Shown: positions 10,006 to 40,232 of the stretch, piece after piece | Position numbering within the stretch: position 1 is the stretch's first letter | Layout of the letters: the number at the start of each line of letters is the position of its first letter | Assembly: GCF_006715305.1 (NCBI RefSeq) | Contig: NZ_VFMY01000001.1 | Coordinates: 4,092,001 to 4,156,000 of the forward strand | DNA from: Arthrobacter sp. SLBN-100 | GTDB taxonomy: Bacteria; Actinomycetota; Actinomycetes; Actinomycetales; Micrococcaceae | DNA length: 64,000 nucleotides | Reading direction: 5' to 3' | Made by a program: the position numbers and the translations under genes | The notes under the pieces: generated by a model | What the model saw: the letters and a program-made list of their open reading frames with translations, nothing else | What the model was told of the DNA's origin: nothing | Database searches by the model: none

Positions 10006-10884
10006 TCAGCTAGTCAGAGCTTTGCGTCGTGCAGGGATCTGTGCCGCTGCGAACATGAGGATCTCCTGGCCGGCCATAATTCCTGAAGAAGAAGTCACGT
10101 CGAGATGCGGAAGGTGGAAGGCGGCCATGTCCAGTTCGCCATGACGGGGCCTGATTGCGGAATCGGCGAGATGCAGCATGCCGGCGTCCAGCAGTGAATC
10201 GCCGGCCGCCACCAACATGTCGACGGGGTGCCGGCGTCGAATTTCCGCCAGGGCCGCCTCTTTGCTGACCGGAGACGGCACGCAGTAAAGCTTTCTGCCC
10301 TGCAGAGAAGTGGTCCATCCGCGTTCCTGGCACCATCCCGATAGGTCCTCCAGATAGTTGGCTGACAGTTCGTCGCGGTTCACGATGGAGTACACGAAGA
10401 CGTCCTCGGCAACTCGGCCCCGCAGGATCGCCGGGGGCCTGGTGGCGCCCAGGACGTAGTCGTGTACCTCCTGCAAGGGGGCGCAATTAGCATGGACGGA
10501 GGCTCGGATGAGATCGGTCCATGCAGGATCCGGGACTCCGTGGTGTAGGAGGACTGCCCCGTTCGTCGTTACCGCGTAGCCTCGGTCCCTCCCGGGTATA
10601 TTCACGCGGCCAAATTGCTGCACTGTTCGCGTCGTGACCGGAACGAAGATGGCATCGTGTACGAGCCGTTCGAGCACATCCCAAGCTGTGCGCGTCATGA
10701 AAGATAACGGCGCTCCCTCATAAACTTCAGCTACGACCAGCGAAGGTGTAGAGCTGTCAGAAGACTGGAGAGCCATGGAATTGGACGAGTAGATGAGCGT
10801 TCGGTCAAGATCACATGCCACCATCATCGAGGACTTGCCGGTGGAGGACTGTGCGAGGTCAATTCCGTTGGCCAGTGTGGTCAC
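10006..10884 (-). CDS. HAD-superfamily phosphatase of the ter metabolite module
   Basis: A 292-residue HAD hydrolase. The nucleophile motif is CDLDRTLIYS (D25, D27) and the distal acidic motif is AAGDSLLDAGML. It has a C2-type cap like Cof or sucrose-phosphatase enzymes. The start is GTG, overlapping the upstream stop (GTGA). In Ter systems such phosphatases are associated with a phosphoribosyltransferase and lyase thought to make a nucleoside-like metabolite. It is the last gene of the operon. Confidence 0.85.
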   Translation of the reverse strand: MTTLANGIDLAQSSTGKSSMMVACDLDRTLIYSSNSMALQSSDSSTPSLVVAEVYEGAPLSFMTRTAWDVLERLVHDAIFVPVTTRTVQQFGRVNIPGRDRGYAVTTNGAVLLHHGVPDPAWTDLIRASVHANCAPLQEVHDYVLGATRPPAILRGRVAEDVFVYSIVNRDELSANYLEDLSGWCQERGWTTSLQGRKLYCVPSPVSKEAALAEIRRRHPVDMLVAAGDSLLDAGMLHLADSAIRPRHGELDMAAFHLPHLDVTSSSGIMAGQEILMFAAAQIPARRKALTS

Positions 10885-13445
10885 AGTGCTGCCGCCTTCT
10901 TCTCAGTCCCGGCCGTTGGAGCCGTACCATGCAGGGGATGGATCAGACCCACACACGTATACGGGAGGTCTTCCACGTAGACAACCTCCACGCCCCTGAG
11001 TCTGGCCAGCAGGAGGACGTGCTGCACGTCTTCACTCGAGGCTGACCGCACCAGGATCTTCCAGGGGACGCGGCGCAGGAGCACGCGTGTGGTTTCGCCC
11101 ACCCCCGGTTTCACGAGGTTTGTGTTGTTAAGCCCGAATTCCTTACTGATTCGCTCCACGGCCGCCAATCCTGACCAGTCCGCTGGCCGAGGGCCGGCAT
11201 CTTCCCCTGAGGCTCTTGCCGCGGTCGTAAGAACGGAGTGTTGGACCTCGGTGAACCGCTCGGACACAATGTCGAGGAAGGCGCCGGAGACGTCCTTGGC
11301 TGCCAGCTGGCGGTAGTACTTTGCCCCATGGAAGTCATTGGGGAAGATGAGGTTTCGGTTGAAGACAGTGCGTGAGACAAGGCCGGATACAGTCGAGTTC
11401 AGGCAGGCCGACGGAATCAGGAAATCGTCCCGGGTGCCGAATATTTCCGTGCAGTGCCCAGGATCGGCGAGCACCGCAAGTTCCGGGCTGAAGCGTGCTC
11501 CGTCCGTGCGCGCAAAGGATTCGACGGCGGTCGCAAGCTCACGGGCGATCGCGCCTTTGCCGGTCCATCCGTCCACGAACATAACTTGTTCTGGCCGGTA
11601 GTGGCTGGCCAGGTAGCTCAGTGCCGTCTGGTCAATGCCAACACCCCGCACGATGCTCGCCGTGTAATGGGGGAGTTCGAGGCCGTGAATTTGCTTGGCC
11701 CAGCGCTTCATCAGAATTCCGACCGGTGTGCCCGCCCGTGCCAGGGATACGAGAACGGGAGTGCCATCCCGGAGCGCTATTACCTGTTCGGTTACGGTGC
11801 CGACGGCGTGCGCCACCCGTGCCGCTGACCTGGACAGGGCTTCCTTGTACAGTTCCTCGTACTCACGTGAGGGTTCATATTCCTCGGGCAGCGATTCTGC
11901 GTAATTGGCTCGGCCTGACTGGATGGCAGCCTCCCGTTCAGCGGTAGGGGCTTCCAGTTCGGCGAAGCTGAGGTCCTTGATCAGCCACTGCACTTCGCCT
12001 GCCTGGTACGAACCAAAGGAGGGCCCCTGACCTGGTGTCGGGAAAGGCCGCTCCGAGCTCAGGAGTACCACCTGCACGCTGGCGCCCGTTCTGGACGCAG
12101 CCTCTGCGATGCTCTCAGAGCCGATCAAGGCAGTTTCTGGCGTTCCTGGTTCGGCCATCACGACCACTTGGTCAAACCGCTGCCCGGGGTGATTGAAGTT
12201 GTAGGCAAAGCGCCTTCCGGGACCATCCGCGGTGACGTCGTGGCTGTTGAAGGTCACCACCGAGCGGACCGGATACCCTGGTCCGTCAATCACGGCGATG
12301 GGGGAGCGGGTGCTGGTGGAGTAGCGGACCGCCACCCCGGGCAGCCTGTCCTGCAGGGCGGCAGCCGTGGCCAACGGCAGGGCCATAAACTCCTCGGTGG
12401 CCAGCACCAGAAGGCTGCCGGCGGCCGGCGTCACCGCGGCCAGTTCCTCTGCAATGCGTTCGGCGACGGCGGCCGATTCGGGCCGCGAGTTGATTCCGAA
12501 CCGGGCGCTCCGGACGGGGTTTACCCGGCGGGTGAGGTCCAGGACTGACACGTCCCCGCTGCTGGGCGCACCGACAGGCCCTACCCCCGACTGACTCACC
12601 AGCAGGGCTGCCTTGGCCGGCAGGTCGTCGGGCAAAGCAATGTCGCCGTTCGCAAGGCTCACAACGGTGATCCTGCAGTCCAGCTCGACAGCCAAGTCGT
12701 CCAGCCGGATCCGGTCGGCTGCTAATCGCAAATCGATTAGTGAAGCAACAACGTAATGCTGGTGCGGGGCTGCCTGATGGAGAGCGCAGATTGTATTGAT
12801 AATGGTTGCACCGGTGGTGAGTTCGTCGTCGACCAGAACGATGGTGCCTGCGCCGCTGAGGGCTGCATGCCGGGTGGGGAAAAGCTGATGCGACGTGGCA
12901 TGGGAGTGGGATTCCTCGAAGGCCACGTAGGGGCGCACCGAGTCGGCACCGTCCACCGCATGGCGGGTGGAGTGGATGTAGTAGGAACCCAGAGAATCGG
13001 CCACCAGCTGACCCAGCCCTGTGGCGGTCTCTGCGTAGCCCATGGTGGCAACGTCCGGAAGGGCCGGCTGGCCGCGAAGGTCCCGGCAGAGTTCAGCGAT
13101 TGCCGCGCTCCGGCCAGCGCGTGCTGCTGTTGGTTCCCCCGCCAGAAGGTCTTCGAACCGGGACGCAGCGTCCTGAACGAGGGTATTCGTAAGCGGGCTA
13201 AGGGCGTCGCGCACCAGCAACCCCAGCAACAGGCCTGCTGCCGTTGCGATTCCCGGCTCTGTGGGTACGTGTTTTGCCAGAACCCGCGAGACCAACAGGT
13301 GGGCCCGCTTGGGGTTGCGGCGCAAGGCCAGGCCAACCAGCGACGTGACCGGCAAGAGACTGGGCACCGAGCCGGGGGAGACCGCCAATCCCCACTCAGC
13401 GAAGCTTCCGGCGGGATCGGGATAGAGGGATTCTGCGACTGTCAT
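10881..13445 (-). CDS. Phosphoribosyltransferase - TRSP - StiP - PELOTA fusion protein
   Basis: An 854-residue fusion of domains that are often separate in other ter loci. The N-terminal third carries a PRPP-binding loop IVLVDDELTTGAT (about residues 202-214) of an orotate-PRTase-like domain. A TRSP-like region follows (about 310-460). From about 520 a StiP domain begins (TPVLVSLARAGTPVGILMKRW, SIVRGVGID, FVDGWTGKGAI). The last 80 residues (GVGETTRVLLRRVPWKILVR) look like a PELOTA RNA-binding domain. It overlaps both neighbours by four bases. It is probably the central enzyme of the nucleoside-like metabolite module. Confidence 0.88.
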   Translation of the reverse strand: MTVAESLYPDPAGSFAEWGLAVSPGSVPSLLPVTSLVGLALRRNPKRAHLLVSRVLAKHVPTEPGIATAAGLLLGLLVRDALSPLTNTLVQDAASRFEDLLAGEPTAARAGRSAAIAELCRDLRGQPALPDVATMGYAETATGLGQLVADSLGSYYIHSTRHAVDGADSVRPYVAFEESHSHATSHQLFPTRHAALSGAGTIVLVDDELTTGATIINTICALHQAAPHQHYVVASLIDLRLAADRIRLDDLAVELDCRITVVSLANGDIALPDDLPAKAALLVSQSGVGPVGAPSSGDVSVLDLTRRVNPVRSARFGINSRPESAAVAERIAEELAAVTPAAGSLLVLATEEFMALPLATAAALQDRLPGVAVRYSTSTRSPIAVIDGPGYPVRSVVTFNSHDVTADGPGRRFAYNFNHPGQRFDQVVVMAEPGTPETALIGSESIAEAASRTGASVQVVLLSSERPFPTPGQGPSFGSYQAGEVQWLIKDLSFAELEAPTAEREAAIQSGRANYAESLPEEYEPSREYEELYKEALSRSAARVAHAVGTVTEQVIALRDGTPVLVSLARAGTPVGILMKRWAKQIHGLELPHYTASIVRGVGIDQTALSYLASHYRPEQVMFVDGWTGKGAIARELATAVESFARTDGARFSPELAVLADPGHCTEIFGTRDDFLIPSACLNSTVSGLVSRTVFNRNLIFPNDFHGAKYYRQLAAKDVSGAFLDIVSERFTEVQHSVLTTAARASGEDAGPRPADWSGLAAVERISKEFGLNNTNLVKPGVGETTRVLLRRVPWKILVRSASSEDVQHVLLLARLRGVEVVYVEDLPYTCVGLIHPLHGTAPTAGTEKKAAAL

Positions 13446-14629
13446 TTCATACTCGCTTCTAAGAGCTCCGCGAAACTGATTCCGGGGTTTGCCACCCCGA
13501 AGGCTCTGGCCCGCAGCAGGATCCGTTCAGCCCACGAACGGTGCGGCTTGTGTTCGTTCATTTTGTTTCGGTAGGAAGAGGCTTGGACCCCGCCGGAATG
13601 ACCAGCAGCGATATCGGTCGCATCCAGGTATTCCTCATGGCTGACAACTGACATCGAGTGCACCACTGGGACATGGCTTGGATGGATTACGGTCTTGCCC
13701 AGCAACCCGTTGGCCTGATCGAGCTCGATCTCACGAATTAAGCCGTCGAGGTTAGCCAGCAGCAGGCGCTGGCGCAGGGCCTCCTCATCGAGGTTAATGA
13801 ACGGCGTCGCCCGCAGGAGGGGGCGCAGGACCCGCTCCTTATTGGAGAAGTGCTCCCAGACGGGTCCGGTGATGACCCAGCTGTTCCCTGTCCGGCCGAA
13901 GACGTTCACGACGTCGCCGATGACGTTGGCCACTACATTGACGTGGTAGATGGTCAGGTCCCGTGAACGGCGGAGCCCAAAAGCGCCAGACATGTCCGTG
14001 GCTCCGATCCGGATGCACAGGACCAGGTCCTGGTTCGCGTTGATCACGGCCAGTGCGTTCTGCAGGGCTGCCGTCCGTGTCTCCACATAAGTGGTGACGG
14101 GGTCTTCGATGATAGGCATAGCCAAGAGTGGCGAAAGTCCGCCGTCCGCCTCGATTCGGCCGGCCTCGCGGTTCAGCCGGCGCAGCGCCTCGAAAAAAGA
14201 CCGCCCCCGGCCTGTTTCGTCCTCAAATTTGGGCAGCACGAAACCCGCCACAACGCCGAGCGAGGACCCCGCCCGCCGGCCGACGTCGAGCAGTTGCTCC
14301 GGGGTCCGGCACCTGATGAACAGGAGCGGGAGTGCTGTGCTGTCTTGCTGGCTGGCAAGTTCAGCCAGCGCTTCGAGGAGGATTGTTTCAGCGCGGGCGA
14401 CATCGTCATCAGCGACGGAGTCTTCCAGGCAGAGGACGAAGCTGATGCAGCCGTGTTCGGTCTGCTTGAGCACCCCCTTCGCCAGACCCGGCCGGTTCGC
14501 GGGAGAGTAGAGGGTGGCACCGAGGGCGACGGCGAGGAGGCCGGGGTCGGAATTGCGTGTCAGTTCTTCGGGTGGCGAGAGAAACAGCCGCCCGCGTTCG
14601 GACTGGCTCAAAGATTTGAAGTGTCGCAT
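13442..14629 (-). CDS. HpcH/HpaI aldolase / citrate lyase-like enzyme of the ter module
   Basis: A 395-residue C-C bond lyase of the citE-like TIM-barrel superfamily (LYSPANRPGLAKG, SFVLCLEDSVADDDV with acidic metal ligands, CIRIGATDMSGAFGLRRS, GLLGKTVIHPSHVPVV). This subtype is known from Ter operons next to PRTase/StiP genes. It overlaps the fusion gene start (ATGA). The substrate is unknown; it may supply or cleave a carbon unit of the proposed metabolite. Confidence 0.88.
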   Translation of the reverse strand: MRHFKSLSQSERGRLFLSPPEELTRNSDPGLLAVALGATLYSPANRPGLAKGVLKQTEHGCISFVLCLEDSVADDDVARAETILLEALAELASQQDSTALPLLFIRCRTPEQLLDVGRRAGSSLGVVAGFVLPKFEDETGRGRSFFEALRRLNREAGRIEADGGLSPLLAMPIIEDPVTTYVETRTAALQNALAVINANQDLVLCIRIGATDMSGAFGLRRSRDLTIYHVNVVANVIGDVVNVFGRTGNSWVITGPVWEHFSNKERVLRPLLRATPFINLDEEALRQRLLLANLDGLIREIELDQANGLLGKTVIHPSHVPVVHSMSVVSHEEYLDATDIAAGHSGGVQASSYRNKMNEHKPHRSWAERILLRARAFGVANPGISFAELLEASMK

Positions 14630-14657
14630 TCATCCCCAAAATTTGGCTCAAAAAATG

Positions 14658-15416
14658 TTAGCGGCGGCCAGTGTGCACGCTGGTGGGAGTGGTCATGGTG
14701 AAGCCGAAGGCAGCCCAGATGGCTTCGTCGTTTACGGCCTCGACGTACTCCGCACGAAGCTCAAGGAGGCTGTCAATGCGGGCGATGTACAACACCGCGC
14801 GTTTGCCGTCAGAGGCTTTGGGGGAAACCGCCAATGCCGATTCCCCAAAAAGGCTGACGACCAGAGGCTCCTCCTGTGCTATGAATATCGCGCGCCGGAG
14901 ACGTTTGACGTGTCTGAGGGCGATCGCGGCGGAGCCGTCATGGAATGCCACCAGGTTTCTGTTTCCGACAGTGGGGCTGGCGACACCGGCCCTCTCACCC
15001 CGCGCATTTTCAGCGCCTGTCAGCTGGTCGATATCCTCCCAGGCGGTTGACCGCGGGCCGTGGACCAAGAGCGTCCCGATGCCGGACTGCCGTGCATTCA
15101 GGCGCACGACGGGAGCGCCCTCAGCCAGTTGGCGGCTCTCCGTGAAACTCGGTGCACTGAAAAGGCGTGCGGAGTCGCGGACAGGTGCCAGCAAGGGTGG
15201 GCGCGCCCCCCTCTCTGCGGAAGGTCCGCTGCCTGATCGGGGGCGTTCCAGGCTGAGGCCCGACGACGACGCAGCGCTGAGTGGGCGATCCGTGTGGTTT
15301 GCGAGGGGTGCTTCCTGAACGCGGTTCCGGGCCGTCACACTGTGGGTACTTGTCGGCCTGATACGGCGGGAAATGTAGGTGATATCGGGACGTGGGCGTC
15401 GCGCTTGATGGTCCAT
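14658..15416 (-). CDS. Uncharacterised ter-operon protein, possibly a divergent TerD-like domain
   Basis: A 252-residue protein beginning one base after the stop of the upstream TerD gene, so coupled to it. Residues 1-110 are Ser/Arg/Pro-rich and look disordered. From about 115 the pattern is beta-rich; LRHVKRLRRAIFIA and RAVLYIARID...WAAFGF recall the strand order of TerD (VDRIVFVVSI and CMIFAELYRH...WKFRAVGQGY). The calcium-binding acidic loop is absent. The TerD relationship is my inference from weak pattern similarity. Confidence 0.7.
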   Translation of the reverse strand: MDHQARRPRPDITYISRRIRPTSTHSVTARNRVQEAPLANHTDRPLSAASSSGLSLERPRSGSGPSAERGARPPLLAPVRDSARLFSAPSFTESRQLAEGAPVVRLNARQSGIGTLLVHGPRSTAWEDIDQLTGAENARGERAGVASPTVGNRNLVAFHDGSAAIALRHVKRLRRAIFIAQEEPLVVSLFGESALAVSPKASDGKRAVLYIARIDSLLELRAEYVEAVNDEAIWAAFGFTMTTPTSVHTGRR

Positions 15417-15417
15417 G

Positions 15418-15969
15418 TCAGAGCGCTAGCTTGTAGTCGGCAGCCACACCGGAAAGCCCGTTCTGGTAGCCCTGGCCAATGGCCCGGAACTTCCAGCCGC
15501 CGCTGTGTCGGTAGAGTTCCCCGAACAACATGGCCTTGACCTGCATCTGATTTCCCAACGGAATATCAAACCGAAGAAGTTCGCGGTTGGTTTCGTCCGC
15601 CAACCGCACGTAGGAGTTTTTCACGGGGCCGAAGTTCCCTGGACCACGAAGATCGGGATCCACATAGACGACAAAGGCTATTTTCCGCACAGCCTCAGGA
15701 ACATTGGCCAGGTCCACGTCGATTTGTTCCTGGTCGTCAGCGCCGACGAATTCCATGCTCCCCTCGGGAGTCGCGAGCTGGTTGAAGAACACTAGATGGT
15801 CGTCGGAGAGGGCCAGCCCGTCTTGCCCGCACATGATGGCCATCGGGACAAGCTCGGCCTGGGGTCCGAGACTTTGCGTTATGGTCCACCCGAATGCCAC
15901 CAGTACTTTGCGAAGACCAGGGTTCTCGCCTGTCAATGCAGCATTGCCGCCAGGGATCATTGACGCCAC
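15418..15969 (-). CDS. TerD-family protein 4 (divergent)
   Basis: A 183-residue TerD-domain protein: LRKVLVAFGW at the start, DDHLVFFNQ, VRKIAFVVYVD, and ELYRHSGGWKFRAIGQGY near the end. The loop that is normally GDGDDE reads ADDQEQIDVDL here, so calcium binding is probably weakened. The GTG start overlaps the stop of the upstream gene and follows GGAAGGA; an internal ATG nine bases later is the alternative. Confidence 0.92.
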   Translation of the reverse strand: MASMIPGGNAALTGENPGLRKVLVAFGWTITQSLGPQAELVPMAIMCGQDGLALSDDHLVFFNQLATPEGSMEFVGADDQEQIDVDLANVPEAVRKIAFVVYVDPDLRGPGNFGPVKNSYVRLADETNRELLRFDIPLGNQMQVKAMLFGELYRHSGGWKFRAIGQGYQNGLSGVAADYKLAL

Positions 15970-16484
15970 TACTGTCCTTCCAAATGGAGGCTGCCCAAAT
16001 CGAACTTGTCCTGGAGGAATCTCCCGTGAATGGCCAGTTCGGTAGCTGCACCGCTGCGGACTTGCTGATTCAGATTGAGGACTGTGGAATGCAAAGTTGC
16101 CAGCTGCGCAAGCAGTGTAGTCGTCTCGCCTGAACCGCCCACGCGGGACGATTTGGGAAGCATCAGGTACGTCCTCAGTGACGTGGGCAGGTAATCGCTG
16201 ATGATTGCACCCGCGAGAACCACCTGCTCCGTGGAGGCATCGGTCTGTTGCATGTGGGCCACCAAAGGCGCGAGAAGGTCATCGATTTGTCGGAACTGCG
16301 AGTAGATAAGAGTGGGCAGCTCGCCGCCTGCGCGCCGGATTTCGGTGCGGAGGGCGTCTAGTGAGGCTCGGTTGGTACCCAGATCTATGACGTTCTGGTC
16401 GAGCACGGGCGCGGGCCCCTGTTCAGCGTCGGAGTTGCGTGAAGCAGCGGCGCTGAACAGGGACCCTATGAACTTACCGACCAT
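15969..16484 (-). CDS. Uncharacterised helical ter-operon protein
   Basis: A 171-residue, mainly helical protein without membrane segments. The region from about 35 to 160 is rich in heptad-like leucines (LPTLIYSQFRQIDDLLAPLV, LLAQLATLHSTVLNLNQQVR), suggesting a helical bundle or coiled coil. It sits directly after TelA, also helical, and its stop overlaps the next TerD start. It may work with TelA. No family recognised. Confidence 0.8.
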   Translation of the reverse strand: MVGKFIGSLFSAAASRNSDAEQGPAPVLDQNVIDLGTNRASLDALRTEIRRAGGELPTLIYSQFRQIDDLLAPLVAHMQQTDASTEQVVLAGAIISDYLPTSLRTYLMLPKSSRVGGSGETTTLLAQLATLHSTVLNLNQQVRSGAATELAIHGRFLQDKFDLGSLHLEGQ

Positions 16485-16514
16485 TTTTCTGCTGGATTTT
16501 TCGTGACAGCAACT

Positions 16515-17708: not shown

Positions 17709-17733
17709 GTGTGGATCCCTGTCGTCAAGCGTA

Positions 17734-18315: not shown

Positions 18316-18349
18316 TATCCTGCTCCTTCGAGTTGCTTATTGCTTAGAA

Positions 18350-18383
18350 GCGGTCCGCTGCAGCCTTGGCTGCAGCGGACCGC
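18350..18383 (-). other. Strong hairpin between two terD genes
   Basis: GCGGTCCGCTGCAGCC (18350-18365) is followed after two bases by its exact complement (18368-18383). No T-run follows on the minus strand, so it is more likely an mRNA stability, processing or attenuation element than a full terminator. Confidence 0.75.
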
Positions 18384-18389
18384 AATTAT

Positions 18390-18971: not shown

Positions 18972-18993
18972 TTGATCTCCTTAGGTGTTTGTA

Positions 18994-19584: not shown

Positions 19585-19605
19585 TGTCGTGCTCCTGTTC
19601 TTTAT

Positions 19606-20721: not shown

Positions 20722-20728
20722 TGTGCAT

Positions 20729-20810
20729 CCAACTCCTGTAAAGCGGGTTCGGCCACAAGTAAACGGCTTTACCTCAGCGTGCTACCAGGAGTAAGTCTCC
20801 CCCTGACTTG
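20729..20810 (-). promoter_or_regulatory. Structured 5' leader of the ter operon
   Basis: In the minus-strand sense the leader has a hairpin CAGGGGGAG/CTCCTGG (20805-20785) and a second stem GTAAAGC/GCTTTAC (20772-20738) that abuts the AGGAG ribosome site (20737-20733). This could control translation. It does not match the full yybP-ykoY riboswitch consensus that often precedes terC-type genes. Confidence 0.4.
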
Positions 20811-28520: not shown

Positions 28521-28521
28521 G

Positions 28522-31194: not shown

Positions 31195-31278
31195 TACCCG
31201 GGGCAAAGCCGCATGCCCTTCCTTGGCCGAACGCCGGGGTCGGATCGTAAGTCAAAGACAGTGAACGAAGAGGCAAAG

Positions 31279-33729
31279 ATGAGAGACCAGAAGTACCAGA
31301 CCCGGCTCTCGGCGTTGAAGCTGTGGGCGGACATGGTGTCCGCCAGGGGGTATGTTCCGCCGGCAGAGGAGGATCTGTCCCTCATCGCGGAGCACAAGAA
31401 AACCGACACCGCGGGCCTCGACCAGGCCTTGGTGGGCCCATGGCGGGACGCACTCAAGGAACTTCTCAAGCAGCTTGCTTTCAATATTGCCGATCCCCAT
31501 TTACAACTGGGCCCGGAATTCGATGAACCCGGACCGGGTGCCATCAGGGTTGCGGCGGCAAGGACCGCGAATCAGGGGCCGGTGACGGGCGGTCCGGCCC
31601 TCCCGCCAGGGTCTCCTGCAGCGGATCCCGCCTTCCTGGCTTTGAAAACCTGGCGCAACAAAGCCATCGCAGAGAAGCGTCTGTCTCCCAGCAACCTCAA
31701 GGAAGCCCAGCTTCGTTTGTTGGTCAATTCAGGGCAGACGACGGAGGTGGAGATCCGGTCCGCCTTCCCGCCCGCCGTCGCGAAGTATGCAGGCGAGATG
31801 GCCGAAGTCCTGACCGCGCTTCACTCCTCCGGTGAGGCGGTCGAAACCGCAGGTTCGCCGAAGCCCACTCCCGGGAATCCCGCCCCAAGCGCCCCACCAC
31901 GAGCCGCATCAGTGCCACCGGCCGGAGCTCAAACAGCACCGTTGCGAGCCGCCCCGCCAGTGCCAACCAAAGCCCCGGTTGCTGACAAAGCCCCCAGCCC
32001 TGCCCCACCTGCCGCCGTGGAACTTGATCCGGCCGGCTTCGCGGCTTACGACTATGCCCCCCAGGCACCGGCTCAGGTCAGCGTGGAGGCGCGTAAGGAT
32101 TCGCAAGGCCACCGGAAGTACTCGTGGACGCCGGCGCAGTCAACCAGCCTGGTGACGATCTATCGGCTGGTCGCCGGCGACGAGCATGAGCCCTATGCGC
32201 CGGATCAGGCGGACCTGGTGGCGGCAACAACCGATGCTGAGGCTATTGACGATCGCTCATTTACCACTGCGACGCGCTACCTGCAGGTGTGGCTGAACCA
32301 TGGGCCGAGCATAGCCGAGGCCATGGCAGCCCAGCCGACGTTGTACGCCGCAGGCGGTTACGTGGGGGAACTCGGGAATGTCGAAATCCGCGAGGATGAG
32401 GGTCGCGTCGTTGGCAGGTGGACTGCCCTGCCGGGAACGCAGAAAGTCCAGATTTTCCGGATCCCGATCGAACGCGCTGCCACCGGTGGTGGCGATCAGC
32501 GATACCGGATACTGCAGGACTCAGCGAACCTCGGTGGCTTTGTCGATGCCAATGCAGAGCGGGGCAAGGCCTATCTCTACCAGGTGTGTGCAGAAGCTGC
32601 CCTGGGTGGTGACGTCCGGCTTTCCAGCCCCACGGCTTGCACCGTCCGGGTAAGCGCAGTGCTGGAACCAGTCAGCGACATGCGCATTGAGATGACAGGG
32701 GACAATGGATCCTCCCTCTTCGACCTGCGCTGGAGCAGTCCAGCCGGGGGCAGCGTAGTGGTCTACCGCACCGAGCAGCCTCCACAGGCCGGCCTGGAGC
32801 TGGAACCGCTCTCTGAGGATTCGCTGCGGATCAGCGGGCTGATGCCTGAATCCCGGCTGCCCAACCCTGTGGAGGTCGTCGACGGAACCGCGACCATGCT
32901 CAGCGTCCCGTGGCCTTCCGGCTGGACGCGTGCCTACTTCACTCCGGTGACGCTGCTGGAGGGAATGGCGCATGTGGGGACTGCCATTTTCAAGTCCCGT
33001 AATGACAAGGTCCGGAACCCGAGGATCGTGGAGCGGGTCAATAGCCAGACCCTCAGTTTTGAGTGGCCCGACGGCGCGGATTCCGTCATGGTTTATATGG
33101 GCCCTGCCGGCCAGGACCCGGAGCTGTCACTCAACAGCCAGGGGATGGAAATTTCTCAACCCGACTACCGGCGCCGCGGTGGACTTCAATTCACGCAGCC
33201 GCTGCCCTCCACTGGGTGTGACCTGCATCTGGTGCCGGTGAGTTTTGAAGCTGGCGCGAGGGTGTCCGGAGCAATCACTACCGTCAATTACCCGCATATT
33301 CTTCGGCTGACCTACCAGGTCGTGGAAGCAAAGAGCTTCCTAGGCAAGGTGACGGGTGTGTCCGTCATTGTGCAGACGTCGGAAGCAGTTCAGTCCATGC
33401 CGGCCTTCGTTCTGGTTTACAACCCCGACCGGCTGCCGCTGACCAGCCGGGACGGGAGGGCGCTGAATATGGTGCCGGCCATTGATGTGGCCGCGGCTCC
33501 TGCGCGCCGGTTCACCCCCGGCGGTTCCGGACCCGACGGGCCTGTTCCGTGGAAGACCGACCCCGGGTCCTGGGCATCGGAGGTCAATCCTGAAGGTGGG
33601 TTCCTACGTCTGTTTGCCGATCTTCCAGTGGAAGTATTGCGGCATGTGGCGCTTCTTGACCCGCCGGTCGCATCCCTTCGCTTCTCCGGTACGCCGAGTA
33701 TGGGTGCGAGGTTCTTTGGTGGCCGATAA
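31279..33729 (+). CDS. Protein with helical N-terminus and Fn3-like repeats
   Basis: An 816-residue protein. Residues 1-190 are helical with a repeated pattern (LKLWADMVSARGYVPPAEED, LKTWRNKAIAEKRLSPSNLK), which suggests two copies of a small domain. A Pro/Ala-rich linker (about 190-265) follows. The rest shows repeated beta-sandwich units with a shared core (YSWTPAQSTSLVTIYR, GRWTALPGTQKVQIFR, LRWSSPAGGSVVVYR, FEWPDGADSVMVYM), at least four Fn3-like modules. The ATG at 31279 follows AGAGG; a GTG at 31261 and an ATG at 31213 are alternatives. It is probably a cytoplasmic scaffold. Confidence 0.82.
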   Translation: MRDQKYQTRLSALKLWADMVSARGYVPPAEEDLSLIAEHKKTDTAGLDQALVGPWRDALKELLKQLAFNIADPHLQLGPEFDEPGPGAIRVAAARTANQGPVTGGPALPPGSPAADPAFLALKTWRNKAIAEKRLSPSNLKEAQLRLLVNSGQTTEVEIRSAFPPAVAKYAGEMAEVLTALHSSGEAVETAGSPKPTPGNPAPSAPPRAASVPPAGAQTAPLRAAPPVPTKAPVADKAPSPAPPAAVELDPAGFAAYDYAPQAPAQVSVEARKDSQGHRKYSWTPAQSTSLVTIYRLVAGDEHEPYAPDQADLVAATTDAEAIDDRSFTTATRYLQVWLNHGPSIAEAMAAQPTLYAAGGYVGELGNVEIREDEGRVVGRWTALPGTQKVQIFRIPIERAATGGGDQRYRILQDSANLGGFVDANAERGKAYLYQVCAEAALGGDVRLSSPTACTVRVSAVLEPVSDMRIEMTGDNGSSLFDLRWSSPAGGSVVVYRTEQPPQAGLELEPLSEDSLRISGLMPESRLPNPVEVVDGTATMLSVPWPSGWTRAYFTPVTLLEGMAHVGTAIFKSRNDKVRNPRIVERVNSQTLSFEWPDGADSVMVYMGPAGQDPELSLNSQGMEISQPDYRRRGGLQFTQPLPSTGCDLHLVPVSFEAGARVSGAITTVNYPHILRLTYQVVEAKSFLGKVTGVSVIVQTSEAVQSMPAFVLVYNPDRLPLTSRDGRALNMVPAIDVAAAPARRFTPGGSGPDGPVPWKTDPGSWASEVNPEGGFLRLFADLPVEVLRHVALLDPPVASLRFSGTPSMGARFFGGR

Positions 33730-36496
33730 TTGGGCAAGTCCGCCAGAGGGCGCGCTCCGGTGGGGTCAACTGACCTATGCATCCTTTGATCCGGACAACG
33801 GGGCAGGCGGTTGGCAGGTAACCAGCACGGCCGGAGGCCTCAGCGACGGCGAGATCGAGGCGCTGCGGCAGCGGATAGTCACGAGGTTCGACTCGGACAT
33901 TCAGCTGGGTGCATTTCCCAATGCGGTTGAGCTTCAGGCCATGCCCCGCCGGCTAACGTACATCAATGATGGCCAAGGCTGTGGCGCCTACTGGCACAGC
34001 ACGATGGCGGGGCGGGACTCCACAGGAAGGCCCGGCAACGTCTTTAGCCACGTTCTCCTGGATCGGTCCACGGCGCAGCTGACGCCGGCCATCCGGCCGA
34101 TCGAAATCTGGCGTTCCCCCGGTTTGCTGTGTCCCTTTGGACCGGAGCAAGTGCGCGAGGCGGTGCTGAGCGACGACACCAGTCCAACGTTCGGGGCAGG
34201 CTTGGGCCGGGAGGACGTTCTCGACTTCCTCTTCGACCAGAGCGAATGGCGGGTGGGCTTACTCAGTGCCCTGCTGGACGCAGTGTCTGCCGCGATGAAC
34301 GGCGGCCCCGGCGTCGTATTGGTTACGGACTCCGCGGAGAACGCCGCCCTGTGGATCGCGGCCGTCAGCAGGTTGGCGCCCGCTGACTGGGTCCGGCGTA
34401 TGAATTTTTCAGTCTATGAGCGGGCTGCAGGGCTCGACACCGTTTTCGACCGGGGCGTGCACCTGGTCGGTGTCCCACGTGCCGACGCAGGCGCCCTCCG
34501 ACAGCAGTCAGTGTTCACCGTTCTGGACGAACACGAAGTACCGGACCTTGGCGAAGTGGGCGGCCGGCAACATCGAACCCAATCAGGTTCCCTTATTACG
34601 CCGACCCACTGGTCAGCGCTCGCCCAAGCGGCGTTGGTGGACCGGGCAACTTTTTCTGCAGCCACCTCCATGATGGACGACGTCGCGGACCGTGTCGGCG
34701 ATACGGGCCCGGAGCCCAGTTGGGCTCTGGCGATGGTTGCCCTGCGGCTGCCGGACATCTTCGGAGACTACGATGCCGAGGCAGCGGCAGTCGTCGCGCG
34801 CCACTCACCAGATTCCTTGGGCGGCGATGAAGAGCTGATGCAGCTTGCCCGGAACACCATGCAGCGGGGCAACGGCGGCTCCGCCGGTGAAACATGGGCG
34901 GAGCTTGATCAGGACAGTGCGTCCAGACTGATGCGGCAGGTCTTAATGCAGGCCTATCTGCAGCGCTCGCTTGAGGACGATGAGTGGTTGGCGCAAACGG
35001 GGGCGATTCCGCTACCGCCAGATTACCGCGTGGAGTACAGCACACCGGAAGCGCGGCAGGCGGCACGGTCGGCGATCCTGACGCTGCAGCGGAAGTTCAC
35101 CGATGACGATTCCCCAAAGCTCCCCACTACGGCCATCAGGACATTGGATTTCATCCATCGCGCCGGACTCGTTGACGCGGAGGACCGTTCCGGCGAATCC
35201 CTCGAAGATTCCATCGCAGAAATCCTCGAGCGAATTCTCTTCGATGTTGTCGATGATGATGACAGGGCAAAAGCACTTGTGTCCGACACGGGGGCTCTTG
35301 TGGACGACTCGCTGCGACGGAAAGTCCTGGCGGCCGTCGAAAACTGTGTGAGGTTCCGTACTCAGCCGGCCGGTAACCGGGTTCCCCCGGCTTTTTGTGA
35401 CTGGTTGTTTGGTGCACTCCCGGCCTCGGGGATCCCCAATGTACCCTCGGACCGCAATGCCGTAGTACCTCCTATGGCTGTGGAGCACGCAATCTGGCTC
35501 TGCCGAAACGGCCGGGGCCAGATTGGTGGAGCCCGGGCTGTGGCAGCGGCCGGAGTCATGGAACCAGGACAAATCGAGGTCGTGGCCGATTCGGTTCTGA
35601 CCCAGATATTCGTGACCGAACCGCCGTGGCGTGCGTCGGAACTGCTATTTCTGGAACAGAGATTCCCCGGCGAGCTGCTTCCCCGATTCTTCTCCAAGGC
35701 ATTGTTGAAGGAGGAATGGTCCGAGTCGCTGGCTGAGCTGATCGGTGCTGTCTTGGACCGCAAAATCACTGCCCCGGACTGCCCGGACTCCCCGGATCTG
35801 CCATTTGCCAGACTGCGGCTCATGGCCAGGCAACCGTGGGCAGTGGGTCATCCTGGCGAGGTACAGGTCCAAGCCGACTGGATCCTGAACACGGCCGTGC
35901 ATGCTGTGACGGCCGTGCAAGGCCGCCTGGAACAGGTGGAACTGACCGCGCTGGTGCTCGAAGCTGCAGTGATCGCCGTCGCCAACCCGCGGAACCGCCT
36001 CGAGCTGCCCCGTGAAGTGCGGAACCTGGTCGCCGGCCATGTTGCCGTTCAGGAAGATGGGGTTTCAGATTTTCTTCACGCCTGCGTGGATTCCCGAGTG
36101 CTGGGCCAAGCGGAAATTGAGGAATTGACTCGCTTGGCGATCGTGACGACGCCCGGCTATCCGGGCCGGGAGGACGTCCTGGGCGACTTCCTGTCCGACG
36201 TGATGGTACTTGCAGGGTCCGAGCGCGTCCGGCTGCTGGAAGTGCCCATCCGCCATGCCGTCAGAACGGGCCGGACAGATCCGCAATCAATGTGCGACTC
36301 GATCCTAACGAAAAACTGGAACCAGACCTTCAATACTGCCTCCGAACGCCTTGTGGAAAAGGTTTACGAGGAGCGCCAGAAATTCTCCCGGGAATGGTGG
36401 AAAAAGCTCCGCCAGGAAGCGGGATTCACTGATCTGGATCCTGCGAAACCGGCACGTTTCGGCGGGTTTATGTCCGCAATTAGAAAGGATCGATGA
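33719..36496 (+). CDS. GAP1-like GTPase-associated protein
   Basis: A 925-residue protein whose N-terminus matches the GAP1-N2 type of GTPase-associated proteins: LRWGQLTYASFDPDNGAGGW, LPRRLTYINDGQGCGAYWHS and GRPGNVFSHVLLDRS. The middle and C-terminal parts are helical. GTG start, overlapping the upstream gene by 11 bp; the frame upstream of it is read-through of the previous gene in another phase. Such proteins accompany TRAFAC-type double GTPases in predicted conflict systems. No enzymatic motif is evident. Confidence 0.82.
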   Translation: MADNWASPPEGALRWGQLTYASFDPDNGAGGWQVTSTAGGLSDGEIEALRQRIVTRFDSDIQLGAFPNAVELQAMPRRLTYINDGQGCGAYWHSTMAGRDSTGRPGNVFSHVLLDRSTAQLTPAIRPIEIWRSPGLLCPFGPEQVREAVLSDDTSPTFGAGLGREDVLDFLFDQSEWRVGLLSALLDAVSAAMNGGPGVVLVTDSAENAALWIAAVSRLAPADWVRRMNFSVYERAAGLDTVFDRGVHLVGVPRADAGALRQQSVFTVLDEHEVPDLGEVGGRQHRTQSGSLITPTHWSALAQAALVDRATFSAATSMMDDVADRVGDTGPEPSWALAMVALRLPDIFGDYDAEAAAVVARHSPDSLGGDEELMQLARNTMQRGNGGSAGETWAELDQDSASRLMRQVLMQAYLQRSLEDDEWLAQTGAIPLPPDYRVEYSTPEARQAARSAILTLQRKFTDDDSPKLPTTAIRTLDFIHRAGLVDAEDRSGESLEDSIAEILERILFDVVDDDDRAKALVSDTGALVDDSLRRKVLAAVENCVRFRTQPAGNRVPPAFCDWLFGALPASGIPNVPSDRNAVVPPMAVEHAIWLCRNGRGQIGGARAVAAAGVMEPGQIEVVADSVLTQIFVTEPPWRASELLFLEQRFPGELLPRFFSKALLKEEWSESLAELIGAVLDRKITAPDCPDSPDLPFARLRLMARQPWAVGHPGEVQVQADWILNTAVHAVTAVQGRLEQVELTALVLEAAVIAVANPRNRLELPREVRNLVAGHVAVQEDGVSDFLHACVDSRVLGQAEIEELTRLAIVTTPGYPGREDVLGDFLSDVMVLAGSERVRLLEVPIRHAVRTGRTDPQSMCDSILTKNWNQTFNTASERLVEKVYEERQKFSREWWKKLRQEAGFTDLDPAKPARFGGFMSAIRKDR

Positions 36497-37545
36497 TGCC
36501 CACATACATCTTGGAGGGCACGAGCGAAGTTCAGCTTCGCGTCCGTCCGCTTCGTGTGACCTTGCTTGTTGAGGGTGGATCGTCCCAAGCACGGCTTGAA
36601 GTTTCCCTGAAGGGCCGCCTGCAGGAATCAGTGGTCCGTCCGCCGGACGGGGTCATCCTGCCGGCGGTTGAGGAGCTGACGGTGGTTTCAGTGGTCCCCG
36701 TGGGCCAGAACCGGTTTCCGTCACCCACCGTCCTGCATTTGGCCGTGTCCGTAGAGGAGAGGGCGTCCTTGGACCCTCAGCGAGCCGTGCTGGTGCCGAT
36801 TGATGTGTCCGGGCTGGACCGGAAAGACTTGATCTCCGTGGAACGCATCGGGGAGAGCCTAAGCCTCCGGGTGGCACATCACCAGGAGGACGCGGATCTG
36901 GGTCAGCTCGGCAATGCCGCGCGCGTGGCAACGCGCGAAGTTCTGGGGCTCCAGTGGTTGGATGACGCCGCTGCCTTCAACATGCTGTTGGCCGTGGATG
37001 GATCAGGATCCGCAGTGAACCTTGTGCAGGAAGGTACCGTGAGCGCCATGGCGCAAGTGCTGACCGGGATAGCTCAAGTGATAGCGGGCGGCAATCCGAT
37101 GCGCGCCGCCGTCGTCAGCAGCTCCGTCAACCCTGTCCCGACGCGCGATTTGGCGTCCCTTCCCGCGGATATCGTCGCCACACATCAGGTGTTGCTCCCT
37201 TCCAGCAGTTTCCGTTCCACCTTTCGCCGGCCTGAGGACCTCCGCCCTGGGGCGCCCACCATCGTGTATCTGCTGACGGACTCCATGCCCGCAGACATCC
37301 TTGATCTGGAAAGGCTGGTGGAGCCGGGTGAAGTGCGGCATATCATTTCGGTGATGCCGAAGGCGGCCTGGCAGCTTCTCGGCGGTACCTCGGTTTCACA
37401 TACGGTAGTGGAACCGGTTCTTGGGGGAAATGGTCTTGAAAGCCGCCTGTTGGGCGACCCGCACGCCTTGCGTGCTCTGGTGAATTCGTTGCTCCAGCCT
37501 TGCCTCAGCACGCGCTCAGAGCTCTTGGAAGGAGTTACGCCGTGA
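36493..37545 (+). CDS. Second vWA-like protein of the GTPase operon
   Basis: A 350-residue protein with a beta-rich N-terminal 150 residues and a C-terminal vWA-like domain. The MIDAS is DGSGS at D169 (LLAVDGSGSAVNL), and TIVYLLTDSMP gives the distal Asp. It has no signal peptide. It overlaps the GAP1-like stop (ATGATGA), and a second ATG three bases on is equally possible. It overlaps the GTPase start by GTGA. The linkage suggests it forms a complex with the two flanking proteins. Confidence 0.82.
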   Translation: MMPTYILEGTSEVQLRVRPLRVTLLVEGGSSQARLEVSLKGRLQESVVRPPDGVILPAVEELTVVSVVPVGQNRFPSPTVLHLAVSVEERASLDPQRAVLVPIDVSGLDRKDLISVERIGESLSLRVAHHQEDADLGQLGNAARVATREVLGLQWLDDAAAFNMLLAVDGSGSAVNLVQEGTVSAMAQVLTGIAQVIAGGNPMRAAVVSSSVNPVPTRDLASLPADIVATHQVLLPSSSFRSTFRRPEDLRPGAPTIVYLLTDSMPADILDLERLVEPGEVRHIISVMPKAAWQLLGGTSVSHTVVEPVLGGNGLESRLLGDPHALRALVNSLLQPCLSTRSELLEGVTP

Positions 37546-38708
37546 CTACCCGTTGCCCTGGTTGTTTCCAGCATCTGCCGGAGGATGGCTACCTGTGGAT
37601 CTGCCGGTCCGGACGGTGCCCCACCCAGCCGGATGATGTTGCGGGGCGCTATGCCGGTAAAAATGTTGAAAACGGACCGCTGATTTACCAGCTTCGGCCT
37701 GCCAACGCTGGCAAAAACTGGATACCCGAAGTACCCACGGGCTGCCCCGAGTGTAAGCAAGCGGCGGTCCAGGAGGCATGTGTACGGTGCCATCACGGGT
37801 TGCTTCCGGGCTGGCGGGACGGTCATGCCACCTGTGTGGCAATGAACGGGTCCCGTGCCACCGGCAAGTCCCTCTATATTGCCGTCCTGGTCAAGCAGCT
37901 GGATCAGCTAATGGCCAAGCTGAGCAGCACCGTTCAATTCGCGGACGCCCGCACGCGCGAGAACTACACGGAGATTTACGAGAAACCCCTATACGAGTCG
38001 CGCGGCCTTATGCCCCCGACGCCGAGTGCCATCACTGACAGTTCGTATCAGCGGGAACCTTTGATCTTCAGTCTAGGCATCATCAATGGGGTTCGCAGGT
38101 TTCTTGTGATCCGTGATGTCGCTGGCGAAGACATGGAGAGACCCCCGGCGGATACAGCACCTTTGAATTTCCTGGCCAACGCCGACGCCGTCTTTTTCAT
38201 GTTTGACCCGATGGCGGTTCCTGAGATCCGGGCCAAGTTGCAGGACCTGGTTCCCACCCAGAGCCAATTGGGCGGTGATCCGCATGCGGTTTTGGACAAC
38301 CTGATGAACATCATTGGCGGTGCCACACCTCGGTTGGCGGTCATCCTTTCCAAATTCGATGCCATGCAGGAGCTGCGGAAAGTCGAGGACATCGACTGGC
38401 AGTCCATCATGTCCAACTCCGGCGCTGCCTTCCTCCGGGACCCAAGCCTTGACAGTGCCCAGTATCAGGAAGACGACGGCGAGCTCCTGCACGAGGAAGT
38501 CCGGAGCCTGCTGCACAAGCTCAACGCGGGCCGACTCGTCCGTAGCCTTGAGAATCCCCACAGCGGCAAGCCGATCCCTTACCGTTTCTTCGCCGTCTCC
38601 GCACTCGGGGAAGCCCCTCGTGGAGAATCCGTCCACCCGCGCGGGATTGCCCCATTCCGCTCCTTGGATCCCGCCAAATGGGTCTTGAGCCTCACGGGAG
38701 CAATCTGA
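37542..38708 (+). CDS. Zinc-knuckle TRAFAC-type GTPase (double-GTPase family)
   Basis: A 388-residue protein. The N-terminal 95 residues hold cysteine pairs (RCPGCFQHLPEDG, CRSGRC, CPECKQAAVQEACVRCHHG) that should bind zinc. The GTPase core has the P-loop NGSRATGKS at about 101-109, Walker B/G3 IRDVAGED at about 190-197, and G4 as LSKFDAM near 269. This matches GTPases paired with GAP1 proteins in conflict systems. GTG start behind GGAAGGAG, overlapping the previous stop. Probably the switch or NTP sensor of the system. Confidence 0.85.
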   Translation: MTTRCPGCFQHLPEDGYLWICRSGRCPTQPDDVAGRYAGKNVENGPLIYQLRPANAGKNWIPEVPTGCPECKQAAVQEACVRCHHGLLPGWRDGHATCVAMNGSRATGKSLYIAVLVKQLDQLMAKLSSTVQFADARTRENYTEIYEKPLYESRGLMPPTPSAITDSSYQREPLIFSLGIINGVRRFLVIRDVAGEDMERPPADTAPLNFLANADAVFFMFDPMAVPEIRAKLQDLVPTQSQLGGDPHAVLDNLMNIIGGATPRLAVILSKFDAMQELRKVEDIDWQSIMSNSGAAFLRDPSLDSAQYQEDDGELLHEEVRSLLHKLNAGRLVRSLENPHSGKPIPYRFFAVSALGEAPRGESVHPRGIAPFRSLDPAKWVLSLTGAI

Positions 38709-38796
38709 ATTTCCTGAGGCGCCACGAAGAAGACATGGCAGGGTCATCTTTTGCCCGTCAGCCCATGACACCACAAATCAACGACAAGGACTCGCA

Positions 38797-39576
38797 ATGG
38801 GACTTTCTCTAGACAAGATCAGCGCTCAAGCGCCGGGGCTTCTCTCACTGGCCAAGACCGCAATTGAGGTCATTGACCTCTCCGGGCTAAACGGCCAGAA
38901 GGCCAAGGTCGCCGTAGCCCTGGACTACTCCGGGTCTATGCAGGACGTCTACAGGGCCGGTGCCATGCAGCGCCTGGTCGAAAAGGTTCTCGCCCTGGCG
39001 ACGCAGTTCGATGACGACGGGTCCATCGATTTCTTCGTCTTCGACTCCACAGCCGCCTATCTGGGCGAAATCAGCATCAACGACTTTGCCGGTTCCGTGG
39101 ATCGACTGACCAAGGGACGACGGATGGGCAGCACCAACTACTCCGATGCCTTTCTGACCATTCGGAACTATTTCGGGTTCGCGCCGCCGGTCCCGCCAGT
39201 GCCGCCCAAAAAGGGATTCTTCGGACTCCGCAAAGCACAGCCTGCCCAGGGTGGGTCAGAGGCGTCCAAGCCTGCGGAGATGCCCGTTTACGCCCTGTTC
39301 CTTACTGATGGCAGTCCGGACAACAAGAAGGCTGCCATTCAGGCCCTGACCGAGGTATCCACCGCCCCCATTTTTTGGAAGTTCCTTTCCATCGGCAAGC
39401 AGCCGATGGAATTTCTTGAGCAACTGGACACCCTCGAGGAGCGTTTCGTGGATAACGCCAACTACGAGCCCATCGGCGACGTGGACGCAATTGGCGACTC
39501 GGCGCTCTTCGAGAAAATGCTGCAGGAATTCCCAGACTGGATAACCCAGGTCCGCTCCTTGGGCCTCATCAAATAG
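38797..39576 (+). CDS. TerF-like vWA-domain protein
   Basis: A 259-residue cytoplasmic vWA protein. The MIDAS is ALDYSGSMQDVY (D43), then GSTNY and LFLTDGSPDN. A proline-rich insertion (APPVPPVPPKKGFFGLRK) sits in the middle. The sequence resembles the vWA half of TerF/TerY proteins, linking this operon functionally to the TerD genes on the other strand. ATG behind AAGGA. Confidence 0.9.
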   Translation: MGLSLDKISAQAPGLLSLAKTAIEVIDLSGLNGQKAKVAVALDYSGSMQDVYRAGAMQRLVEKVLALATQFDDDGSIDFFVFDSTAAYLGEISINDFAGSVDRLTKGRRMGSTNYSDAFLTIRNYFGFAPPVPPVPPKKGFFGLRKAQPAQGGSEASKPAEMPVYALFLTDGSPDNKKAAIQALTEVSTAPIFWKFLSIGKQPMEFLEQLDTLEERFVDNANYEPIGDVDAIGDSALFEKMLQEFPDWITQVRSLGLIK

Positions 39577-39597
39577 CGCGATACGAGAGAGAGCTAC

Positions 39598-40232
39598 GTG
39601 AAAACCAGAGACATTGCCAAGAAATATCAACTCGACCCGCCGCTTTTGATGTGTGGTTAAAGCAGTCCGGTTTGCAGTACAAGCCTGGGTTTGCTGGCCT
39701 GAGCGTCGACGACGGTGTCAACGTGGACGAGATGGTCGGCCATTACAACCAGTACCGAGCCCAGGAGAAAGCACGGACAGCTGAAGAGCAAGAACGTCTC
39801 GCGTTGGAGCAGGCTAACGCGCAGCAAGCTGAGCTAGCGAAGCAGCAAGCCGTGGCGAGCATGCTCATCACCTCCGGCTTCAACTTTGACGGCTACAGCA
39901 TCACCAAGTACTGCGACTATATCTCTGGCGACAGCGCGGTATCGATGGACCGCCCAACCCACGGCTGGTTTAACGGCGGGAGCAAGGATGTCGGCGCAGA
40001 TCTACTGTCAGGGCTGTCGCAAATCAGGCGAAACGCTCTAACGGAGTTAAAAGAAGCAGCCTACGCACTCGGATGCAACGCCGTGATCGGCGTGGATTTC
40101 GACTACCTGACCATGGATCCCGAGACAGCGAGTAGTTCGGGTGGGACGCTCTATCTGCCATTCCTGTTTGCAGTAACGGCGAATGGCAACGCTGTCGTGA
40201 TCGAGAAGAACGAACCCGCTGGGTTGGCGTAG
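39598..40232 (+). pseudogene. YbjQ-type heavy-metal-binding-domain protein with N-terminal frameshift
   Basis: The open part (GTG at 39651 to 40232, 193 residues) has a coiled-coil stretch (about 40-75, EEQERLALEQANAQQAELAK) and a C-terminal YbjQ/DUF74-type domain (LTELKEAAYALGCNAVIGVDFDY). A GTG at 39598 starts VKTRDIAKKYQLDPP, which naturally continues as AAFDVWLKQSG if one base were added near 39640. So the gene probably lost one base, or starts at 39651 as a shorter functional protein. It ends the operon. Confidence 0.65.

Follow-up and report, generated by a model that had tools for sequence, protein, structure and literature searches.

Why does a Ter (tellurite-resistance-type) operon stand back to back with an operon encoding a tubulin-like protein, and do the two belong together? 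The question is raised by a stretch of 64,000 nucleotides from Arthrobacter sp. SLBN-100 (positions 4,092,001–4,156,000 of its 4.94-Mb genome), called hereafter the window. An initial annotation, made from the sequence alone, had described eleven minus-strand Ter-type genes at 10,006–20,721 and, divergent from them, eleven plus-strand genes at about 21,023–40,232. Gene calls and Pfam searches bore out the coordinates and counts on both strands, the plus-strand total including a small open reading frame (ORF, 21023–21370) and a transmembrane (TM) protein (about 21645–22151). The plus-strand contents were likewise as claimed: Tubulin_2, GAP1-N2/GAP1-M, DO-GTPase2 as the GTPase, and three vWA proteins.

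The arrangement is kept in other species and is therefore more than chance. What recurs as the link is TerD, in some relatives even fused to a GAP1-like region, and not the vWA-TerF protein. In related bacteria a Ter gene has repeatedly been kept beside, added to or even fused with the tubulin operon, which suggests that the two systems, both little understood, cooperate at the membrane.

Inheritance of the locus in Micrococcaceae

The genome is close to that of Pseudarthrobacter sulfonivorans ALL 2 (G015; genomes and loci are referred to by G and L handles), whose tubulin is 95% identical to that of the window. Nucleotide homology between the two extends over 10,031–40,245, with 87.7% identity over the main block and 83.3% over the last 0.7 kb, and the DNA just outside these limits had no match. 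The left-neighbour block of the window (974–9863) is found in G015 about 16.5 kb past the opposite end of the locus. Because homology ends at both operon borders, the two operons behave, in this pair, as one 30-kb unit. An empty-site test in the window's own genome gave a single 72% match of 0.5 kb and no clean empty site. A scan of genome contigs returned one relative, and a scan of viral contigs none.

Within the genus, Tubulin_2 was present in 3 of 150 genomes and TerD in 18 of 150; all three tubulin loci had TerD on the divergent strand, at most about 5.5 kb away. In the family sample, four of 295 genomes carried Tubulin_2 (the window's, G731, G812 and G763), and in the window's genome a single gene matched it. 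Five Micrococcaceae loci were of the window type. TerD stood beside the tubulin operon in all four that were uncut (window, G015, G047 and G731), each with the back-to-back order. Both operons are present in G731, with proteins 40–81% identical to the window's, while G047 has a full Ter operon elsewhere and only a TerD1+TerD2 pair beside its tubulin operon. The fifth locus, in G812, is broken by a contig end and falls on two contigs. On the 11.3-kb Ter contig just 186 nt remain beyond the TerC match, and on the tubulin contig the TM-gene match is preceded by 335 nt. G763, the sixth genome with tubulin, carries a distant form of it and lacks TerD.

TerD near the tubulin gene in Mycobacteriaceae and across the class

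Tubulin_2 was found in 54 of 401 Mycobacteriaceae genomes and was clear in 49; five weak partial matches (G863, G878, G940, G1025, G1111) were counted as tubulin-negative. TerD was counted, here and in the class sample, among the matches listed, and weak TerDs may be missed. So counted, TerD occurred in at least 208 of the 401 genomes and in at least 34 of the 49 with tubulin. It lay within 20 kb of the tubulin gene in 27 of the 33 genomes that had both, versus 1.76 expected at random placement. Twenty-eight of the 33 were read as DNA and five (G847, G965, G1008, G1011, G1071) by coordinates only; the fragmented G1019 was left out. The estimate counts each TerD as a separate cluster and takes no account of kinship, and because the genomes are related such chance figures overstate independence. 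By genus, the adjacent fractions were 3/3, 0/1, 0/1, 1/3, 5/6, 9/10, 8/8 and 1/1.

A class-wide sample served as control. Tubulin_2 was present in 28 of 394 Actinomycetes genomes, and TerD in at least 17 of the 27 tubulin genomes other than the window's. After removal of G512, which has the window-type order, 16 genomes with both families were left. Window-type order was seen in 0 of the 16, five of which (G290, G165, G431, G424, G439) gave no tubulin row. TerD lay within 20 kb in one (G424, about 16 kb), with about 1.0 expected; in G270 it was just outside the limit, at about 20.3 kb. Eight of the 16 loci (G471, G165, G355, G270, G431, G424, G390, G439) had less than 20 kb of flank on at least one side; of the other eight, with full flanks, none had a TerD within that distance.

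These counts exclude two extremes. The adjacency is not a one-off, as it recurs in Micrococcaceae and Mycobacteriaceae loci, and it is not a general TerD–tubulin link across all Actinomycetes, since the control, half of its loci being limited by contig ends, gave only about the number of adjacent genomes expected. The initial annotation had regarded the two operons as a single linked locus rather than as independent neighbours. Their adjacency is indeed conserved, but either system alone is common in Mycobacteriaceae, so that the linkage is looser than had been claimed.

Placements of TerD and its fusion to a GAP1-like domain

In window-type loci the core order (TM protein, vWA protein, tubulin, 890-aa protein, 816-aa protein, GAP1, vWA protein, GTPase) is nearly invariant, and it is the place of TerD that varies. 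TerD may belong to a divergent Ter operon, lie just upstream, follow downstream in the direction of the GTPase gene and start at its stop codon, or occur there as a fusion. It is upstream and co-directional in G918, G929, G947, G992 and G1000, belongs to a downstream TerC–TerD block in G1037 and on two Rhodococcus megaplasmids (L022, L023), and is included in larger Ter sets in G1029, G1113, G1121 and G1173. In nine loci (G1081, G1157, G1029, G1173, the four fusions and G512) the downstream start codon is 0–35 nt from the last sense base of the GTPase gene, and thus overlaps its stop codon or closely follows it. In five others (G1041, G1063, G1113, G1121, G1153) the TerD domain starts 600–1000 nt downstream, which leaves room for another gene before it.

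The fusion was found directly after the GTPase gene in four genomes of one genus, in the Rhodococcus group (G960, G978, G1003, G1043). Pfam detects its TerD part (E 7e-23 to 3e-26) and misses the GAP1-like part. The latter was recognized by BLASTP against the window GAP1 (34% identity over 244 aa, E 1e-23), and by a GAP1 profile of 41 sequences, built with the fusions left out, which, searched against no more than these four proteins, gave E values of 2e-58 to 5e-63. Silent codon differences exceeded amino-acid ones in each of three pairwise comparisons (77 to 31, 162 to 106 and 94 to 54), as expected of a real gene. Among 7996 candidates scored in a protein database, six of 33 matches to the fusion covered at least 97% of it.

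A TerF-like vWA protein had been proposed as the bridge between the operons. Its gene starts, in the window, 92 nt past the last sense base of the GTPase gene; among the five window-type Micrococcaceae loci it directly follows the GTPase only in the window and G015, and it was rejected as a general bridge. Elsewhere, in G1037 and on the two plasmids, vWA-TerF is fused to TerD and lies farther downstream. The fusions on L022 and L023 are about 450 aa long and lie near the tubulin operon, at about 39.3–40.6 kb; L022 has a further one at 41.9–43.3 kb.

Tubulin-linked TerDs are spread over several branches of the TerD tree. Repeated recruitment is argued from the differing placements and branches, with the caveat that the tree has long branches (G427, G512, G1121 and G1063 among them), so that the number of recruitments is uncertain. 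The TerD-like gene of G427 is weak (27 bits, no Pfam TerD match). Two side observations concern TerD. In G979 (L132, 12644–14734), an RNase_T exonuclease–BRCT–TerD fusion is encoded 5 kb upstream of the tubulin gene, and proteins with exonuclease and TerD domains were frequent among the database matches. In G031, contig C1, TerD matches of equal score at 871–1401 and 3868696–3869226, near both contig ends, probably represent the overlapping end of a circular assembly.

Gene content of the two operons

Ter systems are defined by TerC, multiple TerD and TelA, together with PRTase-StiP-PELOTA and lyase genes. Pfam recognized TerC, several TerD, TelA, PRTase-StiP-PELOTA and the lyase in the minus-strand operon, which on this gene content is a Ter operon. 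Coordinates and assignments are given in Table 1.

Table 1. Genes of the two divergent operons and the region between them (positions in the window).
Position	Strand	Feature	Basis
10006–10884	-	HAD-like phosphatase, 292 aa, last gene of the Ter operon	DLDRT motif by eye
10881–13445	-	PRTase_2+TRSP+StiP+PELOTA_1 in a single protein, 854 aa	Pfam E 4.6e-57, 3.2e-24, 4.1e-101, 5.3e-33
13442–14629	-	C-C bond lyase (C-C_Bond_Lyase), TIM barrel, 395 aa	Pfam PF15617 E 5.7e-110
14658–15416	-	Ter-operon protein without family, 252 aa	Kept in G015, G731, G812
15418–15969	-	TerD-family protein 4, without GDN..GDGDDE loop	Pfam E 3.1e-48; loop check
15969–16484	-	Ter-operon protein without family, 171 aa	Kept in G015, G731, second Ter locus of G047
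16515–17708	-	TelA, 397 aa from inner ATG	Pfam PF05816 E 1.7e-82 on longer 435-aa reading
17734–18315	-	TerD 3, canonical	Pfam E 3.3e-80
18390–18971	-	TerD 2, canonical	Pfam E 4.8e-82
18994–19584	-	TerD 1, canonical loop	Pfam E 1.3e-48; loop check
19606–20721	-	TerC-family membrane protein (DUF475), first gene of the minus-strand operon	Pfam DUF475 5e-125, TerC 1.7e-16
20722–21644	.	Divergent region between the operons; holds small ORF 21023–21370 (+), two TM helices by eye	
21645–22151	+	Small TM protein, first conserved gene of the plus-strand operon	Equal place in window-type loci
22151–24907	+	vWA protein, signal peptide and TM by eye, MIDAS DESSS	Pfam VWA_2 (PF13519) 1.2e-7
24966–28520	+	Tubulin-like protein, Tubulin_2	Pfam 5.5e-44
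28522–31194	+	Protein of about 890 aa with an alpha/beta N domain, long helices and, by eye, two TM helices	
31279–33729	+	816-aa protein at the place of the FNIII/HRDC component	Gene order and description in PMC7159879 (partial text)
33719–36496	+	GAP1 (GAP1-N2 + GAP1-M)	Pfam PF20013 1.1e-17, PF20014 3.8e-12
36493–37545	+	Beta-domain and vWA protein, MIDAS DGSGS	Triad, modelled fold
37542–38708	+	DO-GTPase2, Cys-pair N terminus (zinc-ribbon-like, by eye)	Pfam PF19993 3.4e-12
38797–39576	+	vWA-TerF-like protein, MIDAS DYSGS	Pfam 2.9e-51
39651–40232	+	YbjQ-domain protein (YbjQ_1), here in G015 only	Pfam PF01906 7.3e-10

The last Ter gene, annotated initially as HAD, is a conserved gene, kept in G015, G731, contig C48 of G812 and the second Ter locus of G047; its label comes from the motif, and Pfam gave no match. 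Likewise, the 252-aa protein had no match in Pfam or NCBIfam, and the 171-aa protein none in Pfam. A sequence search of the Protein Data Bank (PDB) with the PRTase-StiP protein returned nothing, and the nearest solved structures to TerD 2 were 2kxt and 3ibz. The region between the operons contained no promoter-like site and one terminator-like site, not above shuffled sequences.

On the plus strand, the tubulin-like GTP-binding N domain is present in the window tubulin, as judged from the Tubulin_2 match and the glycine loop. This loop (AGGAGA-type) was found in 47 of 47 orthologues, and the pattern GxGGxGG in 34 of the 47. The protein is about 1184 aa long, with a long extension, and its best PDB match by sequence had an E value of only 0.026 or worse. 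The DO-GTPase2 has Walker A and [ST]KxD motifs in 41 of 41 orthologues. All three window vWA proteins have a DxSxS triad, which is kept in 44 of 44 orthologues of the first. The second had no Pfam match and was called vWA because its triad (D169-S171-S173) does not vary among 19 aligned sequences and the modelled structure (pLDDT 82.6) matches vWA/MIDAS folds; DxSxS occurs in 33 of its 37 orthologues. No Pfam family was found for the small TM protein, and none matched the 816-aa protein significantly. For the 28522–31194 protein, a fold search with an 889-residue model found nothing at E 0.001 or better, with middling Z. In G731 and G812, a second gene matches roughly the first 80 residues of the 816-aa protein and lies about 15.0 and 14.0 kb, respectively, downstream of the tubulin start, about the place of vWA-TerF/YbjQ in the window.

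Relation to described systems

Each half of the locus is of a published kind, so that the novelty is the join. Three papers are cited here from the parts of their texts that were available: Kaur et al. 2020 (PMC7159879), Makarova & Koonin 2010 (PMC2875224) and a study of TerC proteins in B. subtilis (PMC10550928). Kaur et al. class GAP1-N2 systems as predicted conflict systems and describe an actinobacterial tubulin type (PMC7159879). The window shares with it a single tubulin gene, GAP1-N2 plus GAP1-M, DO-GTPase2 and a membrane vWA protein. Features by which such systems are recognized were found here, namely both the N2 and M domains of GAP1 and the P-loop and [NST]KxD-type motif of the DO-GTPase. 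The described type further includes a tubulin with a C-terminal helical extension and two FNIII-repeat proteins, one with HRDC and one membrane-bound with vWA (PMC7159879); Pfam matched neither FNIII nor HRDC among the plus-operon proteins, although the vWA protein is present. By its domains the plus-strand operon otherwise fits the actinobacterial tubulin-type GAP1-N2 system. Makarova & Koonin predicted membrane remodelling for FtsZl1 systems, which have in common with the window a tubulin-superfamily protein, vWA proteins, a divergent GTPase and TM proteins (PMC2875224). Because the gene sets are alike, Tubulin_2 was equated with FtsZl1, and the window tubulin appears to be of this type. TerC proteins are represented in B. 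subtilis by MeeF and MeeY, which metalate exported enzymes, meeF being part of a yceCDE-meeF operon (PMC10550928). The window protein is likewise a TerC-family membrane protein, but it matches DUF475 best and adjoins the tubulin machine.

The full combination had been thought undescribed. This holds for the join, whereas the plus-strand operon was already described as a class (PMC7159879). The text of that paper names TerD once, in MoxR-vWA systems, and TelA, TerC and YbjQ zero times, and its available part contains no Ter linkage or GAP1::TerD fusion; in PMC2875224, the word TerD does not occur. No account of a Ter link to this tubulin system was found in the literature searched, most of it consulted in less than full text.

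Anantharaman et al. 2012 reportedly described Ter systems with TerC, TerD, TelA, vWA-TerF, PRTase-StiP-PELOTA, lyase and HAD genes and, to our knowledge, named no tubulin/DO-GTPase partner. All these genes have counterparts in the window. We know of no experimental function for FtsZl1/DO-GTPase machines.

A possible function and its alternatives

The recurrent linkage, the TerD starts at the GTPase stop codon and the GAP1-like::TerD fusion argue for a composite module, in which a membrane-anchored, GTPase-controlled tubulin machine would have the Ter system as its input layer. We give this reading a probability of roughly 55%. The machine would consist of the FtsZl1-type tubulin, vWA proteins, GAP1, DO-GTPase and TM proteins. 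A metal-dependent vWA domain would be outside the cell, the TM proteins and TerC in the membrane, and tubulin, GAP1, DO-GTPase, vWA proteins and TerD inside. TerD domains are Ca2+-binding beta-sandwiches. Here they may be sensor or adaptor subunits that dock on GAP1 or the DO-GTPase; their position on, or fusion to, the GAP1 node suggests that they could report a metal or ligand state to the GTPase governing tubulin assembly. The PRTase-StiP-lyase-HAD enzymes would make or process a nucleoside-like signal, which is a published prediction. TerC (DUF475) may export or load a divalent metal for the extracytoplasmic vWA MIDAS site, as suggested by TerC homologues that load metals onto exported proteins (PMC10550928, partial text). 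Upon envelope or metal stress, or phage entry, the GTPase/GAP1 pair could switch tubulin assembly at the membrane and lead to remodelling or a growth stop, with membrane repair, growth arrest or phage exclusion as possible outcomes. The locus may be read, as it was initially, as a sensor, polymer and nucleotide-signal device. A more specific proposal, which we put forward tentatively, is that TerD serves the tubulin/DO-GTPase machine as an interchangeable input subunit and passes a metal or ligand signal to membrane tubulin assembly. Its evolutionary part, put forward equally tentatively, is that the GAP1/GTPase node repeatedly recruited TerD, next to it, into it or fused onto it.

Several observations weigh against the composite module. 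TerD was not within 20 kb in six of the 33 genomes (G849, G883, G987, G899, G922 at about 24 kb, and the contig-limited G1068), and none was found, among the matches listed, in 15 of the 49 tubulin-bearing Mycobacteriaceae genomes; the machine can therefore do without Ter. Conversely, TerD is common without tubulin (at least 174 of 352 genomes), and its enrichment among tubulin-positive genomes is mild, a weak presence–absence association (Fisher p 0.009, kinship uncorrected). With either system alone in many genomes, Ter is an accessory that recurs but is not obligate. Several operon TerDs are without the canonical acidic loop, and many downstream ones without GDN..GDGDDE, so that calcium sensing may not be general and the ligand may differ. 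Adjacent Ter operons with TelA are limited to the window, G015, G731 and, judged from contig ends, G812, and the control of distant subtypes is limited by short contigs.

It is rather unlikely that the operons are unrelated cargoes, captured side by side in a stress or defence hotspot and held together by shared transfer alone. The 30.2-kb block is flanked by other DNA in G015, with the 974–9863 neighbour displaced, the distribution is sporadic (within the genus, tubulin in 3 of 150), the stretch at 45–52 kb holds a GmrSD restriction protein and a C5-methylase/MvaI-type pair, and two Rhodococcus copies are on megaplasmids, all as such an island would have it. Against mere transfer stand the gene fusion and the start codons at the GTPase stop, the several arrangements and TerD branches, and G047, where a TerD pair stands beside the tubulin operon in spite of a separate full Ter operon; moreover, TerD was near tubulin in just 1 of 16 non-window-type loci, about the 1.0 expected, eight of them contig-limited. 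A narrower link, with only TerD belonging to the machine and the full Ter operon being an ordinary metal or tellurite resistance operon that contains the partner TerDs, seems improbable as well. It would agree with G047, which has just TerD1 and TerD2 there, and with the many Mycobacteriaceae loci where TerD, often one gene, is the sole Ter family in the flanks examined; it is at odds with the TelA-bearing Ter sets beside the operon in the window, G015, G731 and G812, and with TerC and/or PRTase/lyase/HAD genes in G1029, G1173, G1113, G1121, G1063, G1037 and the two plasmids.

We also consider it doubtful that the locus serves in anti-phage conflict, killing or arresting the infected cell, with Ter on the effector side. 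A conflict role was predicted for GAP1-N2 systems by Kaur et al. 2020 (PMC7159879, partial text), restriction genes are nearby, and the exonuclease–BRCT protein fused to TerD in G979 is encoded 5 kb from tubulin. On the other hand, eight plus-operon proteins scanned against PADLOC-DB 2.0.0 (2023 library) gave 0 matches, and Pfam detected no toxin or nuclease domain in 20 scanned proteins of both operons. We know of no phage assay of this type of locus.

If the composite module is real, TerD should bind GAP1 or the DO-GTPase, and loss of Ter should alter tubulin assembly; metal or stress sensing would then be connected to a cytoskeletal, membrane-associated response in actinomycetes. Should TerD be an interchangeable input, a role of Ter proteins in many actinomycetes would be to control a bacterial tubulin cytoskeleton. 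The repeated physical link and the fusion give both systems a testable partner.

Restriction genes downstream of the locus

A GmrSD-type restriction protein (PF03235, 1.8e-26) is encoded at 45176–47083 on the minus strand, 5 kb downstream of the locus. At 49558–52144, on the plus strand, a C5 cytosine methylase gene is followed by that of an MvaI/BcnI restriction endonuclease, near a stretch of low GC content (0.53 at 50–54 kb).

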